A stretch of DNA of 64,000 nucleotides from Prochlorococcus marinus str. MIT 9211 (GTDB lineage: Bacteria > Cyanobacteriota > Cyanobacteriia > PCC-6307 > Cyanobiaceae): contig NC_009976.1 of NCBI RefSeq assembly GCF_000018585.1, positions 491,982 to 555,981 of the forward strand. The letters run 5' to 3'. How positions within the stretch are numbered: position 1 is the stretch's first letter; each line of letters begins with the position of its first letter. Positions 57,849-63,182 of the stretch are shown here, piece after piece. A program made the position numbers and the translations under genes. The notes under the pieces are model-generated. The model saw only the letters and a program-made list of their open reading frames with translations. It was not told where the DNA came from and made no database searches.

Positions 57849-57922
57849 CGGGGCGTGGCGCAGTTTGGTAGCGCGGGTGCTTTGGGAGCACTAGGTCGCA
57901 GGTTCGAATCCTGTCGCCCCGA
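57849..57922 (+). tRNA. tRNA-Pro(UGG)
   Basis: A 74-base cloverleaf with acceptor CGGGGCG/CGCCCCG, D arm GCGC-AGTTTGGTA-GCGC, anticodon loop TTTGGGA (anticodon TGG) and T arm CGCAG-GTTCGAAT-CCTG-type. The 3' half, from just before the anticodon to 5 bases past the gene, is duplicated exactly about 3.1 kb downstream, so this tRNA is an integration target (attL side). Confidence 0.96.
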
Positions 57923-57927
57923 CTGGG
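57880..57927 (+). repeat. 48-bp direct repeat, left copy (attachment site in tRNA-Pro)
   Basis: Exact 48-base match to 60962-61009. This copy covers the anticodon loop to the 3' end of tRNA-Pro plus five bases (ctggg). This is the usual core for tyrosine-recombinase integration into tRNA genes, where the element rebuilds the tRNA at one end. Confidence 0.9.
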
Positions 57928-57951
57928 TTTAGAAGAATCTCAAGTGAGAAA

Positions 57952-57970
57952 GGGGCGCTGTAGGGGGCGC
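57952..57970 (+). repeat. GC-rich 19-bp direct repeat, left copy
   Basis: GGGGCGCTGTAGGGGGCGC is repeated exactly at 60813-60831. It lies 24 bases after the left tRNA repeat. It can fold weakly (GGCGC with GCGCC when the next base is included) and is strikingly GC-rich for this AT-rich region. Confidence 0.75.
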
Positions 57971-58206
57971 CAGATTATTGCAATAGGCCTTTATGTCTTA
58001 GTTCTTTTGAACTTGGTGATTTAAGGATTAATTTGCTTCAAGCCAATTTCAGTTAAGTATTTCCATGTCGGGTCATAATTAGAAGCTGGCCTTGTATGGT
58101 CAATAGTCAGTGCCAAGAGCAAGGCGCCGTTTTAAAGAAATCAATAAGCTATACAAGTTTTGCTTGTATTACTGGTAAATAAATGAAACGCTTACTGCTT
58201 GCTAAC

Positions 58207-58238
58207 TGCATGAAGAGTTCAGCTAGATCAGCTAGAAA
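58207..58238 (+). promoter_or_regulatory. shared leader motif before the first pilin-like gene
   Basis: A 32-base segment matching 59525-59556 at 27 positions, with the core CTAGATCAGCTAG, itself a near-palindrome (ctag...ctag). The ATG of the pilin-like ORF is seven bases beyond it. Candidate operator or conserved untranslated leader. Confidence 0.55.
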
Positions 58239-58244
58239 GGGGAT

Positions 58245-58427
58245 ATGAACCAAGAGCCAAAAGCTAAAAGGGAATATAACGGTTGTTTGAAAGGTTGTGG
58301 GTGCCTTGGACTTACTGGAGTAGGCCTAGTTGCAGTTGGGATTGCTATTCCTTCATTTATCGGCGAGGGGCTTTGCTCTATTAGTGCTAATTCAGCAAGA
58401 GTGAAAATGTACTTTCAGTATCGATGA
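58245..58427 (+). pseudogene. pilin-like gene, N-terminal part (frame disrupted)
   Basis: 60 residues: EYNGCLKGCGCLGLTGVGLV then AVGIAIPSF, the cysteine-containing N-terminal helix of the picocyanobacterial type-IV-pilin-like family, followed by a stop. The next ORF overlaps by four bases (ATGA) and continues with a typical pilin-like extracellular region. Since pilins need helix and head domain in one chain, a one-base change probably split the gene. Frameshifting or coupling remains possible. Confidence 0.55.
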
Positions 58428-58705
58428 GAGATTGCGCTTTATTAGCAGCAGAGGGTAAGAATAATCCTACATTTGCTGATATTGGTTTACCTGAAATGCC
58501 AGATCACTCAGAGTGGCCAAAAGACATATATTCTTTTTTTAAAGATTCTTCTTTCTCTGAACCAATCGCTAAAAATCATAGTTGTTATTCATTAGCTGCA
58601 AAGCCAATGAGGGATGAATTAACATGGTTCTCAATTACAGGAGATATGATAAAAAAATGCGGAGATTCATCTAAACCACATTGCGAAGAAGGAAATACTT
58701 GGTGA
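58424..58705 (+). pseudogene. pilin-like gene, C-terminal part
   Basis: 93 residues beginning MRDCALLAAEGKNNPTFADI and ending with a Cys pair and CEEGNTW, like the disulfide-bonded C-terminal loop of pilin-like proteins. No signal peptide or helix is present, so alone it would not be exported. It reads in another frame than the helix ORF it overlaps. Together they make a normal-sized pilin (about 150 aa). Confidence 0.55.
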
Positions 58706-58787
58706 AAAACTTTTGCGTTAAGTAGTTCGGCTATGCATCTTCTTAATTATTGTGGGTCCACTTTTCTAGGCTCCACATATAAAATAT

Positions 58788-59246
58788 CTAAAAAAACTTT
58801 AGAAGAAGTGGACTCATTCCAATAATAAAAGTTATACCTAAAGCAAGAAAATACCAAAAGAATATGATTACTTTATAAATAGTAGGAAGTGTTAAGATAG
58901 AGGATGGATCGTTTTCACCCGAATAGGTTAACTCAATGTTTCTTTTCTCTAAAAAACTAGCAATTGATTTTGTCATTTTATCAAAAGGTAATCTATAAAA
59001 GAACCAAATAAATAAACACCAAACCCAACAAAGAACTGTAAGAATAAAGCCTAGCCAATAAATAGTTGGAACAAAGAGAATTATTGAGATTATGTATAAA
59101 GTAGCAGCAAAAAACCAATCTTCCCTTGATCTGAAACCGAAACTCGATTCCATGAGACCTCTGAAAAGTCTTCCTGGAAAATAGATAAAAAAGGAAAGGT
59201 AAGAAAAAATTGATTTGTTCCTAAAAAAATTCCTTCTCGACATCAT
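58788..59246 (-). CDS. hypothetical three-helix membrane protein
   Basis: A 152-aa membrane protein with about three hydrophobic segments (FFAATLYIISIILFVPTIYW, LGFILTVLCWVWCLFIWFFY, and VIIFFWYFLALGITFIIGMS). The basic N-terminus is MMSRRNFFRNKSIFSYLSFF. It is the only minus-strand gene in the island. Function unknown. Confidence 0.6.
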   Translation of the reverse strand: MMSRRNFFRNKSIFSYLSFFIYFPGRLFRGLMESSFGFRSREDWFFAATLYIISIILFVPTIYWLGFILTVLCWVWCLFIWFFYRLPFDKMTKSIASFLEKRNIELTYSGENDPSSILTLPTIYKVIIFFWYFLALGITFIIGMSPLLLKFF

Positions 59247-59428
59247 TAATTAATGAGAAAGTAGCTGATTTAGTATTACAAATACAGATTCAATCGCAAC
59301 TCTTCAAACCTTGGGTCCTTTCGAGTGCAGGGGATGTGGGTTATCGAGAGGCTCAGCAATTCGCTAGCGCAGACTTTCTAAACTAGGGATACAAGCAAGA
59401 ATAGAGTCTTATAAAAGCTTTTTATGCC

Positions 59429-59521
59429 ATGCCTCTCAATAAACCTATTCCTGACTCTGTTATTAGCTTTTGGAAAAAGTTCTTTAAAGACCTTAAGGCG
59501 AGATTTGAAAAATCAGGTTAA
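59429..59521 (+). CDS. possible 30-residue basic peptide
   Basis: Short ORF MPLNKPIPDSVISFWKKFFK, then DLKARFEKSG. Amphipathic and basic. It ends just before the second leader motif. Support is weak, being only an open frame in the same strand as neighbouring genes. Confidence 0.3.
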   Translation: MPLNKPIPDSVISFWKKFFKDLKARFEKSG

Positions 59522-59524
59522 GGC

Positions 59525-59556
59525 TGCATGAAGGCCTGAGCTAGATCGGCTAGAAA
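59525..59556 (+). promoter_or_regulatory. shared leader motif before the second pilin-like gene
   Basis: Copy of the 32-base leader at 58207-58238 (27 of 32 identical), core CTAGATCGGCTAG at 59541-59553. A third copy of that 13-base core is at 57009-57021, outside the tRNA repeats. It lies 20 bases before the next ATG. Confidence 0.55.
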
Positions 59557-59576
59557 AGATGAAATAAAGAAGGTTT

Positions 59577-59960
59577 ATGAAAAGATTTCTAATTTTTGGC
59601 GGAGCTGGCTCTTTTCTTCTCTGGATTCTGCTTTCGATTGCAAAACCAATGGACACAAGAACTGCAAGGGGAGCTGCTGTGAAAACTCTGGATAATCTAG
59701 TCAAGGAATGTCTGTATAAGAAGGTTATTAAAGAACCAAATCCAAAATTTTTGTTGCCAATATTAGCTAATTATAAGTTCACACCAATAAATGGGAATTG
59801 TGATGGCGATGAATACAACTTAATAAGAGCTAATTCTGATGATTTATCTAAATATCCAAGTTTCTCTTACGACGTTATAACTAATGTAAAAACCTGTTTC
59901 CATGATGGACCTATAAAAAAATTATATGGTTGCAGTGCTAGAAGGAATGGAGAATGGTGA
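59577..59960 (+). CDS. pilin-like secreted/anchored protein
   Basis: A 127-aa protein with one N-terminal membrane helix (MKRFLIFGGAGSFLLWILLS) and an extracellular part with KTLDNLVKECLYKK, NGNCDGDEYNLIRANSDDLS, then Cys residues near KTCFHDG and YGCSARRNGEW. The helix-Cys-Cys-GEW plan resembles the split pilin-like gene upstream. It lacks a clear prepilin cleavage site, so the pilin assignment is an inference. Confidence 0.55.
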   Translation: MKRFLIFGGAGSFLLWILLSIAKPMDTRTARGAAVKTLDNLVKECLYKKVIKEPNPKFLLPILANYKFTPINGNCDGDEYNLIRANSDDLSKYPSFSYDVITNVKTCFHDGPIKKLYGCSARRNGEW

Positions 59961-60283
59961 TGATAAAACGCGTTAAAAAGTTTTTCTTTTATCTAGCTGG
60001 ACTCTTCATCCCCTTGTACTTTTATGGATTGTTTAATTATGGTGACCTTGATTGGTGTGAAACGCAAAAGGCTTATGCAACAGAACCAGAAATCTATTCC
60101 TATCTCAGATATTTAATCCCATTGTTTTTTTATTCTCTTCATAGGACAGCTATATTTTTAGTAAAAGATATAATCCCATATCAAAAGCATCGATCCCTTC
60201 TTTTGAATGCAATTATTTGGTGGTCATTAATAATTGTTTTGAGCATGATTGCAATCCCTAACCATACAATGAATTGTCCATGA
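59954..60283 (+). CDS. hypothetical three-helix membrane protein
   Basis: A 109-aa membrane protein starting inside the end of the pilin-like gene (overlap 7 bases, or a start at 59960). Helices are KFFFYLAGLFIPLYFYGLFN, LRYLIPLFFYSLHRTAIFLV and NAIIWWSLIIVLSMIAIPNH. No family recognised. It also overlaps the next start by four bases, so the three form one coupled run. Confidence 0.55.
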   Translation: MVMIKRVKKFFFYLAGLFIPLYFYGLFNYGDLDWCETQKAYATEPEIYSYLRYLIPLFFYSLHRTAIFLVKDIIPYQKHRSLLLNAIIWWSLIIVLSMIAIPNHTMNCP

Positions 60284-60522
60284 ATATGAAACGCTTACTA
60301 CTTCCACTAATCGCTGCGCTTGCACTACCTACAGCCGCTAATGCTGAAAGTCATTGGTTGATTATTCAAGCAACTAATGGTGGAGTTTACAATGCGCTTT
60401 AAAAGATAAAAATGGAAAGTGCGGAAGCATGCGAGAAGGAAGGAAGGCGATGGGAGAACAGTTCTACTCAAGGCCTTAGAAGAGAACAAAGAAGATTTCA
60501 CTGTGTTGTAGGGAAATAAATA
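60280..60522 (+). pseudogene. secreted MKRLLLP-family protein with in-frame stop
   Basis: The start reads MNMKRLLLPLIAALALPTAA, then NAESHWLI, a clean signal peptide cleaved after NA. An in-frame TAA lies at 60400-60402, after 40 codons. The same frame continues KIKMESAEACEKEGRRW to VVGK and a stop, matching the expected end of this small picocyanobacterial secreted family. The stop therefore looks like a point mutation. The start overlaps the preceding stop as ATGA. Confidence 0.65.
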
Positions 60523-60527
60523 ACATG

Positions 60528-60629
60528 AGTGATCAAGAGTCAAACCCCAAGCCTAGATATACCTTCGTAATCCTTTTAGTTATTTCGGGGATAGCTCTCT
60601 CAGTGTTCCCATTCTTCTTTATGAAATAG
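60528..60629 (+). CDS. possible 33-residue single-helix membrane peptide
   Basis: MSDQESNPKPRY is followed by a hydrophobic helix TFVILLVISGIALSVFPFFF and MK. It starts six bases after the interrupted secreted gene on the same strand. No homologue recognised. Small one-helix proteins of this type are common in Prochlorococcus islands. Confidence 0.45.
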   Translation, partial: SDQESNPKPRYTFVILLVISGIALSVFPFFFMK

Positions 60630-60638
60630 TCTAGATCT

Positions 60639-60725
60639 ATGCCTGACAAGAAGAAGAAAAAGAAATGCAAAAAGAAGAAATGCTCAAACTGGAAAGGTGG
60701 CAAATGTATTTGTTATGGCCAATAG
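60639..60725 (+). CDS. possible 28-residue Lys/Cys-rich peptide
   Basis: Begins MPDKKKKKKCKKKKCSNWKG and ends GKCICYGQ. Four cysteines and about 13 lysines make it extremely basic. It is nine bases behind the preceding peptide gene. Could be a nucleic-acid- or metal-binding peptide, or chance. Evidence is only the open frame and position. Confidence 0.4.
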   Translation: MPDKKKKKKCKKKKCSNWKGGKCICYGQ

Positions 60726-60812
60726 GCTAACGGGTCCTTTTTAGAGTCCTGAATGTGGTTCGTCCGAATGCTTAAAAGCAGACCTGTTCTCCCAAAGGAC
60801 TAGGTGGCTAAT

Positions 60813-60831
60813 GGGGCGCTGTAGGGGGCGC
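60813..60831 (+). repeat. GC-rich 19-bp direct repeat, right copy
   Basis: Exact copy of 57952-57970. Unlike the left copy it lies 130 bases away from the tRNA repeat, so the two repeat pairs are not placed symmetrically. Confidence 0.75.
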
Positions 60832-60961
60832 TAGAAAGTTCTAATCTCTTTAAATATGTTCTAATTTCTTGCAATATTGAGTCTCACATCGATTTGCATA
60901 ACTTCTGATATTCCTTTGCCAGCAATGCTTTTTAGCGATTCTCGTCTTCTACGACCACGTC

Positions 60962-61009
60962 CTTTGGGAGCACTAGGTCGCAGGTTCGAATCCTGTCGCC
61001 CCGACTGGG
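60962..61009 (+). repeat. 48-bp direct repeat, right copy (tRNA-Pro fragment)
   Basis: Exact duplicate of the anticodon-loop-to-3'-end part of tRNA-Pro with no 5' half, so it is not a functional tRNA. It marks the far attachment site of the island. Confidence 0.9.
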
Positions 61010-61294: not shown

Positions 61295-61579
61295 ATGAAT
61301 TATCACCTTGCTTTAATTAGAAAGGCTCTCAGCAAAAGGGAATTGCTTCACCAAGCAGAATTGGTTTTAGCTTCTAAACCAGAAAGATGCTCATCCGCTG
61401 AATTGAATAGTCGTTTAATAGCCCAAAATGCCAAAAAGAAAAAATTACATCAGGTTGAATTATTTTTAGCTTCTAAACCAGAAAGATGCTCATCCGCTGA
61501 ATTGAATAGTCGTTTGGCTGTTAAAAGGGCTCAGGCCAAAAGGCTGCATTCGGCACAAATGATTTCATTGAGGAAATAA
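61295..61579 (+). CDS. small protein with two 33-residue repeats
   Basis: A 94-aa basic helical protein. Two copies of a 33-residue unit contain ELxLASKPERCSSAELNSRL, each with a Cys, and the DNA copies (61365-61416 and 61464-61515) are nearly identical over 52 bases. The ATG at 61295 is preferred over upstream in-frame codons that read unlikely protein. No family recognised. The pattern suggests recent duplication, just outside the island. Confidence 0.55.
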   Translation: MNYHLALIRKALSKRELLHQAELVLASKPERCSSAELNSRLIAQNAKKKKLHQVELFLASKPERCSSAELNSRLAVKRAQAKRLHSAQMISLRK

Positions 61580-61871: not shown

Positions 61872-62087
61872 ATGTCAATTCCTACTGATTTGGAGTGTCC
61901 AAAATGTGGTTCTAAGGATTTTGAAATTGGACAAGTCAGGACAGCAGGTGGTTTTTGGTCTTCATTTTTTGATGTAGGTAATAGACGCTTTGAGTACTGC
62001 AGTTGTAAGCAATGCACTTACACCGAGTTTTATAAAGGCAAAGTCACAGGTGTCCAGAAAGTTTTTGACTTCTTGGGAAGCGGTTAG
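61872..62087 (+). CDS. zinc-ribbon protein
   Basis: A 71-aa protein with CPKCGSKDF and CSCKQCTYTEFY, forming a four-cysteine zinc ribbon of the nucleic-acid-binding (COG3478/YpzJ-like) kind. The middle, RTAGGFWSSFFDVGNRRFEY, is conserved in this family. Function unknown. RBS ggaacagag precedes the ATG. Confidence 0.8.
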   Translation: MSIPTDLECPKCGSKDFEIGQVRTAGGFWSSFFDVGNRRFEYCSCKQCTYTEFYKGKVTGVQKVFDFLGSG

Positions 62088-62324: not shown

Positions 62325-63182
62325 ATGATTGACCTCAAACGCAACGGCAAGAAAGAACCTGTAAAAGCAACTGGAGTGCGTAGTAGAGAATCGTCTTCTT
62401 ATACCCCTAATCAAACCGCAGATTTTAAAATTAGTAGAGGCCGCTTCTCTAACTTCCTTACGTGTAAAAGATGTTTTTATCTCGATCGAGTGAAGGGTCT
62501 AGATCCTCCCGGAACACCTGGCTGGACACTTAATGAAACCACTGACCTACTACTTAAAAAAGAATTTGATGAGTGCCGAGAAACTCAGACACCACATCGT
62601 TTATTTGCTGCTAATGGGTTAGGACATGTTGTTCCTTTTGATCATCCAGAAATTGAAAACTGGAGGAACTCTCTTCATCGTGGATTGATGCTTAGACACA
62701 AAGGCACCAGCATTATTTTGACGGGAGGAGTCGACGATATATGGCAGGACACCAGAACCAAGCAGTTAATCGTGGTGGACTACAAATCTCAAGCAAAGAA
62801 TGGTGTTGTTGATAAGCAAGACTATTTAGATGATCCATATCACGATGGATATAAGATTCAAATGGACTTCTATTCCTATCTGCTTTCAGGTATGGGGTTT
62901 GATGTCCATCCAACGTCTTACTTCTTGGTCTGCAATGCCAAAAGAGATGACGATGGCTTCCATAAGACGATGAACTTTGACGAATATCTCGTTCCTTATA
63001 ACTGGAATAGTGATTGGATCGAAGAAAAAGTTGATGAGATGGTTGCTCTTATGAATCAGCATCAAATCCCTGAACCGAATGAGTGTTGTAAAAACTGTGC
63101 TTATTCTGAACAGTATGCAAAAGCAGTTCATCAAGCTGACAGTAAGCAAGGGGAGAATGTCCAAGGCTCATTCTTTTCTTGA
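62325..63182 (+). CDS. PD-(D/E)XK nuclease with possible 4Fe-4S cluster
   Basis: A 285-aa nuclease of the RecB/AddB/Cas4 kind. The catalytic signs are GGVDDIW (Asp near 136-137) and VVDYKS (Asp 152, Lys 154). Cys 47 (LTCKRCFYLDR) near the N-terminus and Cys 254, 255 and 258 (ECCKNCAY) near the C-terminus match the split four-Cys iron-sulfur pattern of AddB and Cas4. It is not next to cas genes or a CRISPR. It could serve a mobile element or phage. RBS weak. Confidence 0.75.
   Translation: MIDLKRNGKKEPVKATGVRSRESSSYTPNQTADFKISRGRFSNFLTCKRCFYLDRVKGLDPPGTPGWTLNETTDLLLKKEFDECRETQTPHRLFAANGLGHVVPFDHPEIENWRNSLHRGLMLRHKGTSIILTGGVDDIWQDTRTKQLIVVDYKSQAKNGVVDKQDYLDDPYHDGYKIQMDFYSYLLSGMGFDVHPTSYFLVCNAKRDDDGFHKTMNFDEYLVPYNWNSDWIEEKVDEMVALMNQHQIPEPNECCKNCAYSEQYAKAVHQADSKQGENVQGSFFS

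Follow-up and report, generated by a model that had tools for sequence, protein, structure and literature searches.

Tycheposons, as summarized in a paper that cites them (PMC10872708), are elements located at tRNA genes, 4–200 kb in size, which carry a tyrosine recombinase. The same summary includes additive flexible genomic islands, series of cassettes split by 3′ copies of tRNA-Lys, and describes no integrase for them. Cis-mobilizable elements (CIMEs) have kept attL and attR, their integration genes are gone, and they form tandem accretions (PMC5704250). The Dehalococcoides ssrA islands are also tandem and are bounded by repeats of the 3′ end of transfer-messenger RNA; 15 of them, which lack an integration module, have been proposed to be mobilizable in cis (PMC3146451). 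Here we analyze a 3.1-kb unit (positions 57880-61009) that is bounded by two copies of the 3′ part of a tRNA-Pro gene in a 64,000-nucleotide stretch of the Prochlorococcus marinus str. MIT 9211 genome (hereafter the window). We consider it probable, at about three chances in four, that this unit is a nonautonomous, tycheposon-related cassette that depends for its movement on a tyrosine recombinase acting in trans, one whose arm-binding domain matches the cassette.

The unit is similar to tycheposons, in the features which the summary gives, in that it is integrated at a tRNA gene, duplicates the tRNA, and carries cargo; in addition, recombinase-bearing relatives at tRNA-Pro share its end geometry, and weak homology to its right end is found upstream of recombinase genes. 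On the other hand, it has no recombinase and measures 3.1 kb against the 4–200 kb given for tycheposons (PMC10872708), and it is thus not classed as a tycheposon here, although its ends seem to be of the same kind. The name tycheposon, offered by an earlier reading of this DNA that used the letters alone (the sequence-only reading), suits the ends, which match those of recombinase-bearing elements at tRNA-Pro, but not the content, in which the defining recombinase is absent.

Like a CIME, the unit retains both attachment (att) sites and lacks integration and transfer genes. However, CIMEs are decay products which move in cis with a neighbor (PMC5704250), whereas the units described below have complete ends, rarely contain relics, differ from their neighbors in their repeats, and have moved alone while lacking a recombinase. 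The window unit also has no tandem partner, as its genome contains two att copies, beside which no tycheposon-type recombinase was found. The Dehalococcoides islands have a single end motif in common and a recombinase of the serine type, in contrast to the tyrosine recombinases and many paired repeats observed here. Additive islands resemble what is seen in relatives of this unit, where one array can hold up to nine att copies, the window itself holding a single cassette; end modules or a recombinase pairing are unreported for them in the account given by PMC10872708. A further parallel is offered by integron cassettes, arrays of one- to few-gene units served by a tyrosine recombinase in trans, but the site is here a tRNA gene and specificity seemingly resides in double-stranded paired repeats; neither IntI nor an attC hairpin was recognized, without a search dedicated to either. 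It appears to be the end repeats that determine by which integration enzyme a cassette can be moved. We found no published description of private end-matched repeats, of their link to the N-terminal domain of the recombinase, or of the core-like site named site 2 below, tycheposons being covered in this comparison through the citing paper PMC10872708.

The tRNA-Pro target and the conserved ends

The att copies and end modules of the unit, all given on the + strand, are as follows.

57849-57923, +, intact tRNA-Pro(TGG), the chromosomal target and left att (ARAGORN)
57877-57927, +, left att repeat copy, 48 nt exact from 57880 (direct-repeat search)
57924-57986, +, left end (LE), about 63 bp, kept in relatives with other cargo (blast map, alignment)
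57952-57971, +, putative left arm-type pair, GGGGCGCT-GTAG-GGGGCGCC (repeat search, unit comparison)
60782-60807, +, site 2, core-like, ACCTGTTC-TCCCAAA-GGACTAGGTGG (comparison of units)
60786-60958, +, right end (RE), about 173 bp, attP-arm-like, kept in relatives, with weak conservation upstream of recombinase genes (alignment, model R1)
60813-60832, +, putative right arm-type pair, GGGGCGCT-GTAG-GGGGCGCT (repeat search, unit comparison)
60959-61009, +, right att, truncated tRNA-Pro 3′ part with an element-borne C at 60961 (repeat search, att copies of relatives)

The att direct repeat (57877-57927 and 60959-61009) is 51 nt long with a single mismatch, G to C at 60961, and includes an exact 48-mer (57880-57927, identical to 60962-61009); the intact tRNA lies at the left of the unit and the partial copy at the right. 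The sequence-only reading had described an exact 48-base repeat of the tRNA-Pro 3′ part bounding 3.1 kb of DNA, which was borne out by ARAGORN, by repeat search, and by a genome-wide count, as the tRNA-Pro 3′ sequence occurs only twice in the 1,688,963-bp genome (a reversed control pattern gave zero); a repeat arising by chance was set aside as an explanation. It was also correct that no integrase lies inside: neither size nor family matches point to a recombinase among the open reading frames (ORFs) between the repeats, and tblastn with recombinases of the type found at tRNA-Pro revealed no relic there. Right att copies of window-type units read GTCCTTTGGG, with C, compared with GTGCTTTGGG, with G, in the tRNA. 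The difference marks the C as a base brought by the element and puts the crossover in the anticodon loop or beyond it. Integration into the tRNA gene, as had been proposed, is supported by this target duplication with an element-side core allele, by the attP-like ends, and by the differing cargo of relatives.

The interior of the unit was searched in 300 Cyanobiaceae genomes, one genome per species. Rather than being shared at this position by every relative, the window cargo was not found at the tRNA-Pro locus in any of the 300. It is hardly credible, then, that the locus reflects an ordinary duplication of the tRNA gene or an ancestral island whose gene order has been conserved: a local duplication could yield a truncated tRNA copy, but this copy bears an element-specific base and element-specific flanks, and relatives hold different DNA between the same ends at tRNA-Pro. 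An exact empty tRNA-Pro site was not found among the relatives; in the nearest genome, G039, this tRNA is occupied by another element, which bears a recombinase.

Both ends recur around other DNA at tRNA-Pro in further Prochlorococcus lineages. LE (about 63 bp after the tRNA) and RE (about 170 bp before the second repeat) were detected 1.9–4 kb apart between tRNA-Pro 3′ copies, often in tandem (G016, G058, G003, G036, and G053). In the extreme case of the G177 unit, only 174 bp separate the att copies, and these consist of LE and RE fused at the repeat with zero cargo. A sequence model of RE (R1) retrieved 14 strong homologues from 400 genomes and about 100 weaker full- or part-length matches, several of them in each high-light (HL)-like Prochlorococcus genome and some directly upstream of recombinase genes. 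Among named genome contigs, the exact arm pair was found in Prochlorococcus single-cell genomes in every case.

In HL-like Prochlorococcus, several loci (L149, L150, L152, L153, L156, L160, and L167) each hold between six and nine tRNA-Pro 3′ copies in an array. The units of these arrays span 0.4–6 kb, many with one main ORF; overall, unit sizes are mostly 0.9–3.5 kb. One 2.2-kb att-bounded unit (L156:9440-11675, G244:C1:1057939-1060174) has matched GGGCGATC arms and, to judge from its translation, a 360-aa ORF for photosystem II D1 (psbA), and Photo_RC matches number three in G244 versus two each in the MIT 9211 genome and in G219. This copy suggests that central metabolic genes travel in such cassettes. 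Cargo functions of units other than this psbA cassette were read off translations.

Paired repeats and the N-terminal domain of the recombinase

We collected 88 att-bounded units from about 30 loci around RE matches. Most of them contain a pair of 8-nt direct repeats with a period of 11 or 12, located about 30, 52, or 74 bp inside LE and about 107 or 145 bp inside RE. In the window unit, the paired repeat GGGGCGCT-GTAG-GGGGCGC(C/T), its two members one helical turn apart, is present at both ends (57952 and 60813). The repeat pairs agree within a unit and vary between units, including neighbors in one array. The mean match of left and right repeats was 0.84 within units compared with 0.61 between units (79 units). 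The observed sum of matches was reached by none of 20,000 permutations, either overall or when repeats were shuffled within arrays (66 units from 17 arrays), and letter shuffles never produced a matched pair.

Tycheposon-type recombinases, which possess the R-K-H-R-H-Y set, are common in the Cyanobiaceae genomes searched. Many of them adjoin a tRNA-Pro att and have a repeat pair of their own between the gene start and the core, an arrangement that is also that of the window RE. In such recombinase-bearing elements at tRNA-Pro the repeats lie 84–155 bp from the core. Comparison of 27 recombinases revealed that repeat similarity correlates with the similarity of the first ~75 aligned residues (r = 0.81) and with that of the rest of the protein (r = 0.76). 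The partial correlation was 0.49 for the N-terminal domain, controlling for the rest, versus 0.24 for the rest (0 of 5,000 permutations), and the arm repeats follow the N-terminal ~75–100 residues better than the catalytic part. For several recombinases (e.g., G172a) the arm finder gave no pair in range or a dubious pick, which adds noise to this correlation.

Two nearly identical recombinases illustrate the same relationship. Those of L282 (G121) and L283 (G052) are about 88–100% identical past the N-terminal part and about 48% identical within it (~100 residues), and their arm repeats differ as well (GGGCCCTC in G121 and GGGGAGCT in G052). Judged from these sequences, an exchange of the N-terminal domain has apparently occurred, which would amount to a natural experiment on arm-site specificity. 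In lambda-type integrases, the N-terminal domain binds arm-type sites, and by analogy the pattern observed here fits arm-type sites that would be bound by the corresponding domain of these recombinases.

Site 2, which lies on the inner side of the right arm pair, contains the anticodon-loop heptamer inverted relative to its flanks. Of 34 units whose RE is long, 28 have a GCACTAGGTCG-like half-site there, compared with 1 of 21 whose RE is short. Site 2 probably serves as a second core bound by the recombinase in attP. In one unit (L112:2818-2860, G055), the unit joins the tRNA part directly at site 2 and RE is deleted, whereas 98%-identical units in G058 and G053 retain it. This junction could be explained by recombination or slippage.

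Proposed movement in trans and its alternatives

Units that have no recombinase have moved between lineages. A unit with window-type ends and porin-like cargo shows 98.3% identity between its G058 and G053 copies (2,045 bp compared) and 98.5% between those of G058 and G055, both G053 and G055 belonging, by the taxonomy used, to genera different from that of G058. In comparison, the rpoB region is only 80% identical between G053 and G058 (no rpoB match was obtained from G055), and beyond att the similarity falls to the level of shuffled DNA, except for ~100 bp of the right flank in G053. A second pair, G244 and G067, shares a unit at 99% identity against 94% for rpoB, with unrelated flanks. Since these units carry no recombinase, their movement, if it took place by site-specific recombination, implies an enzyme acting in trans or supplied by a co-resident element. 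The sequence-only reading had left the choice between a decayed remnant and an element moved by an enzyme from elsewhere; the second option holds for the family, because recombinase-less units with these ends moved att-to-att between lineages, while the window copy itself is likely immobile at present.

We propose that the cargo is held between two attP-like half-modules which a tyrosine recombinase made elsewhere could recognize. The unit came in at the tRNA-Pro anticodon loop; the tRNA stayed intact on the left, and the 3′ copy that the element brought now lies on the right. The paired repeats may serve as arm-type sites for the N-terminal domain of a tycheposon-type recombinase, so that the recombinase of another element, provided its domain matches, would excise the unit and insert it in trans next to the tRNA. 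Repeated insertion beside the tRNA could then make arrays grow there.

The transfers could also have occurred by general homologous recombination, in which DNA that arrives by uptake or transduction recombines at the 47-bp tRNA repeats with no recombinase involved today. The att copies do supply homology on either side, and the deletion in the G055 unit is bounded by 12-bp repeats, one in site 2 and one in the core, an outcome that slippage or homologous recombination might produce. However, such a process does not explain why the paired repeats persist, agree between the two ends of a unit, keep fixed distances, and vary from unit to unit, nor does it account for their correlation with a recombinase domain, and we regard it as improbable.

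A phage satellite or integrated phage fragment, the other class suggested by the sequence-only reading, is very improbable. Cyanophages carry tRNA-Pro genes and integration at tRNA genes is typical, but the cargo contains no packaging, capsid, replication, or integrase gene, nor any PHROGs family of weight, and both the right-end 32-mer and the arm pattern are absent from viral contigs; the name is thus dropped. A recombinase query also had no match in the viral contigs. Phage matches to the locus were matches to tRNA-Pro only.

Decay of an autonomous tycheposon, a CIME formed by loss of a recombinase that once lay beside the right att, is an unlikely explanation, yet several observations favor it: RE sits where the recombinase-proximal end sits in autonomous elements, two cargo genes look broken, and a matching recombinase was not found in the genome. 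A tycheposon-type tyrosine recombinase is present in 2 of the 88 units and a short recombinase relic in 2 more, frequencies that are biased because the units were gathered around right-end matches. Against decay, no relic was found in the window unit or in 84 of the 86 units that lack a recombinase, although a clean deletion may have left none. Moreover, unrelated cargo adjoins the same intact RE in many lineages, and whole recombinase-less units moved recently.

Several points weigh against a cassette moved in trans. Besides the collection bias just mentioned, the correlation between repeats and the N-terminal domain is partly phylogenetic, the value for the rest of the protein also being high (0.76). 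The GGGGCGCT arm pattern was not found beside a recombinase gene in the 300 genomes, and the exact helper was thus not seen; in Prochlorococcus this pattern occurs in recombinase-less units only. The nearest recombinase arms are those of G237 (GGGGTAGCT), which match several recombinase-less units. Finally, the decay of its cargo speaks for a long residence of the window copy. Its own genome yielded no tycheposon-type recombinase, the sole match being weak (E 1e-13, a level seen in many genomes) and probably corresponding to a ~390-aa gene found by Pfam at 493445. Given this search result and the apparently broken state of two cargo genes, we take the window copy to be probably stranded.

More broadly, we lean slightly toward the view that an integron-like economy of cassettes operates on a tRNA gene in Prochlorococcus. 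Private two-repeat addresses at both ends would be read by swappable recombinase N-terminal domains, cassettes would move in trans between lineages, and enzyme–cassette pairs would be predictable from sequence alone. Much of the flexible gene pool of Prochlorococcus, which is the most abundant photosynthetic cell of the ocean, is found in genomic islands, and in many of their small tRNA insertions no recombinase is visible. Should the recombinase N-terminal domain read the repeats as an address, the traffic of such islands could be predicted from sequence; cassettes could be delimited to the base and assigned to helpers, and an assignment could be tested with one enzyme and two mini-elements.

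Cargo and surroundings of the window unit

The following features were recognized between the repeats and to the right of the unit.

58245-58705, +, pilin-like gene by eye, apparently frameshifted, as ORFs 58245-58427 and 58424-58705 (three-frame translation; no Pfam match)
58788-59246, −, predicted membrane protein of 152 aa (ORF list; Pfam and PHROGs scans without family)
59429-59521, +, 30-aa peptide ORF MPLNKPIPDSVISFWKKFFKDLKARFEKSG, its DNA recurrent in many relatives (translation, relative search)
59577-59960, +, 127-aa ORF with a hydrophobic stretch at the N-terminus (ORF list; Pfam without family)
59954-60283, +, 109-aa membrane protein (ORF list; Pfam without family)
60286-60519, +, secreted-peptide frame interrupted by a stop at 60400-60402 (three-frame translation)
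60525-60629, +, 34-aa ORF, one-helix membrane (three-frame translation)
60639-60725, +, 28-aa Lys/Cys-rich peptide ORF MPDKKKKKKCKKKKCSNWKGGKCICYGQ (translation, relative search)
61872-62087, +, Zn-ribbon ORF, outside the element (Pfam scan, relative comparison)
62325-63182, +, PD-(D/E)XK nuclease, outside the element (Pfam scan, relative comparison)

No cargo ORF between the repeats had a convincing Pfam or PHROGs family. The labels pilin-like, membrane, and secreted-peptide, given by the sequence-only reading, were partly sustained: none has a family match, the pilin-like reading has an apparent frameshift at 58424, and the signal-peptide ORF (MKRLLLPLIAALALPTAANA...) is halted by the stop at 60400, its frame running on to 60519. 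Three micro-ORFs (59429-59521, 60525-60629, and 60639-60725) had been missed.

Parts of the cargo are dispersed among other genomes. DNA similar to that of the 28-aa Lys/Cys-rich peptide is present in dozens of Cyanobiaceae genomes. At 59429-59521 and over the next 40 bp, the DNA matches G010 and G039 at ~92% identity, and it was found again in many islands. A dispersed repeat of ~33–40 bp, CTGCATGAAG..CTAGATC.GCTAGAAA, occurs at 58206-58238 and 59524-59556, a little upstream of small ORFs, and also in islands of many relatives; it is possibly a shared promoter or leader. The stretch 60286-60366, which codes for a signal peptide (MKRLLLPLIAALALP...), precedes different small ORFs across islands, indicating reuse.

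The nuclease and its upstream DNA are about 95–97% identical to G039, where they lie inside the recombinase-bearing tRNA-Pro element. Probably, then, the window unit inserted with the tRNA on its left and an older remnant on its right. Elsewhere in the same genome (G000:C1:358355-361794, L118:6356-9795), two tRNA-Thr(GGT) copies 3.3 kb apart enclose a 327-aa integrase and a 374-aa ORF, an integrase-bearing tRNA island. Right next to the element, 61333-61515 contains an 84-nt tandem-like duplication, 85% identical, with a spacing of 99.

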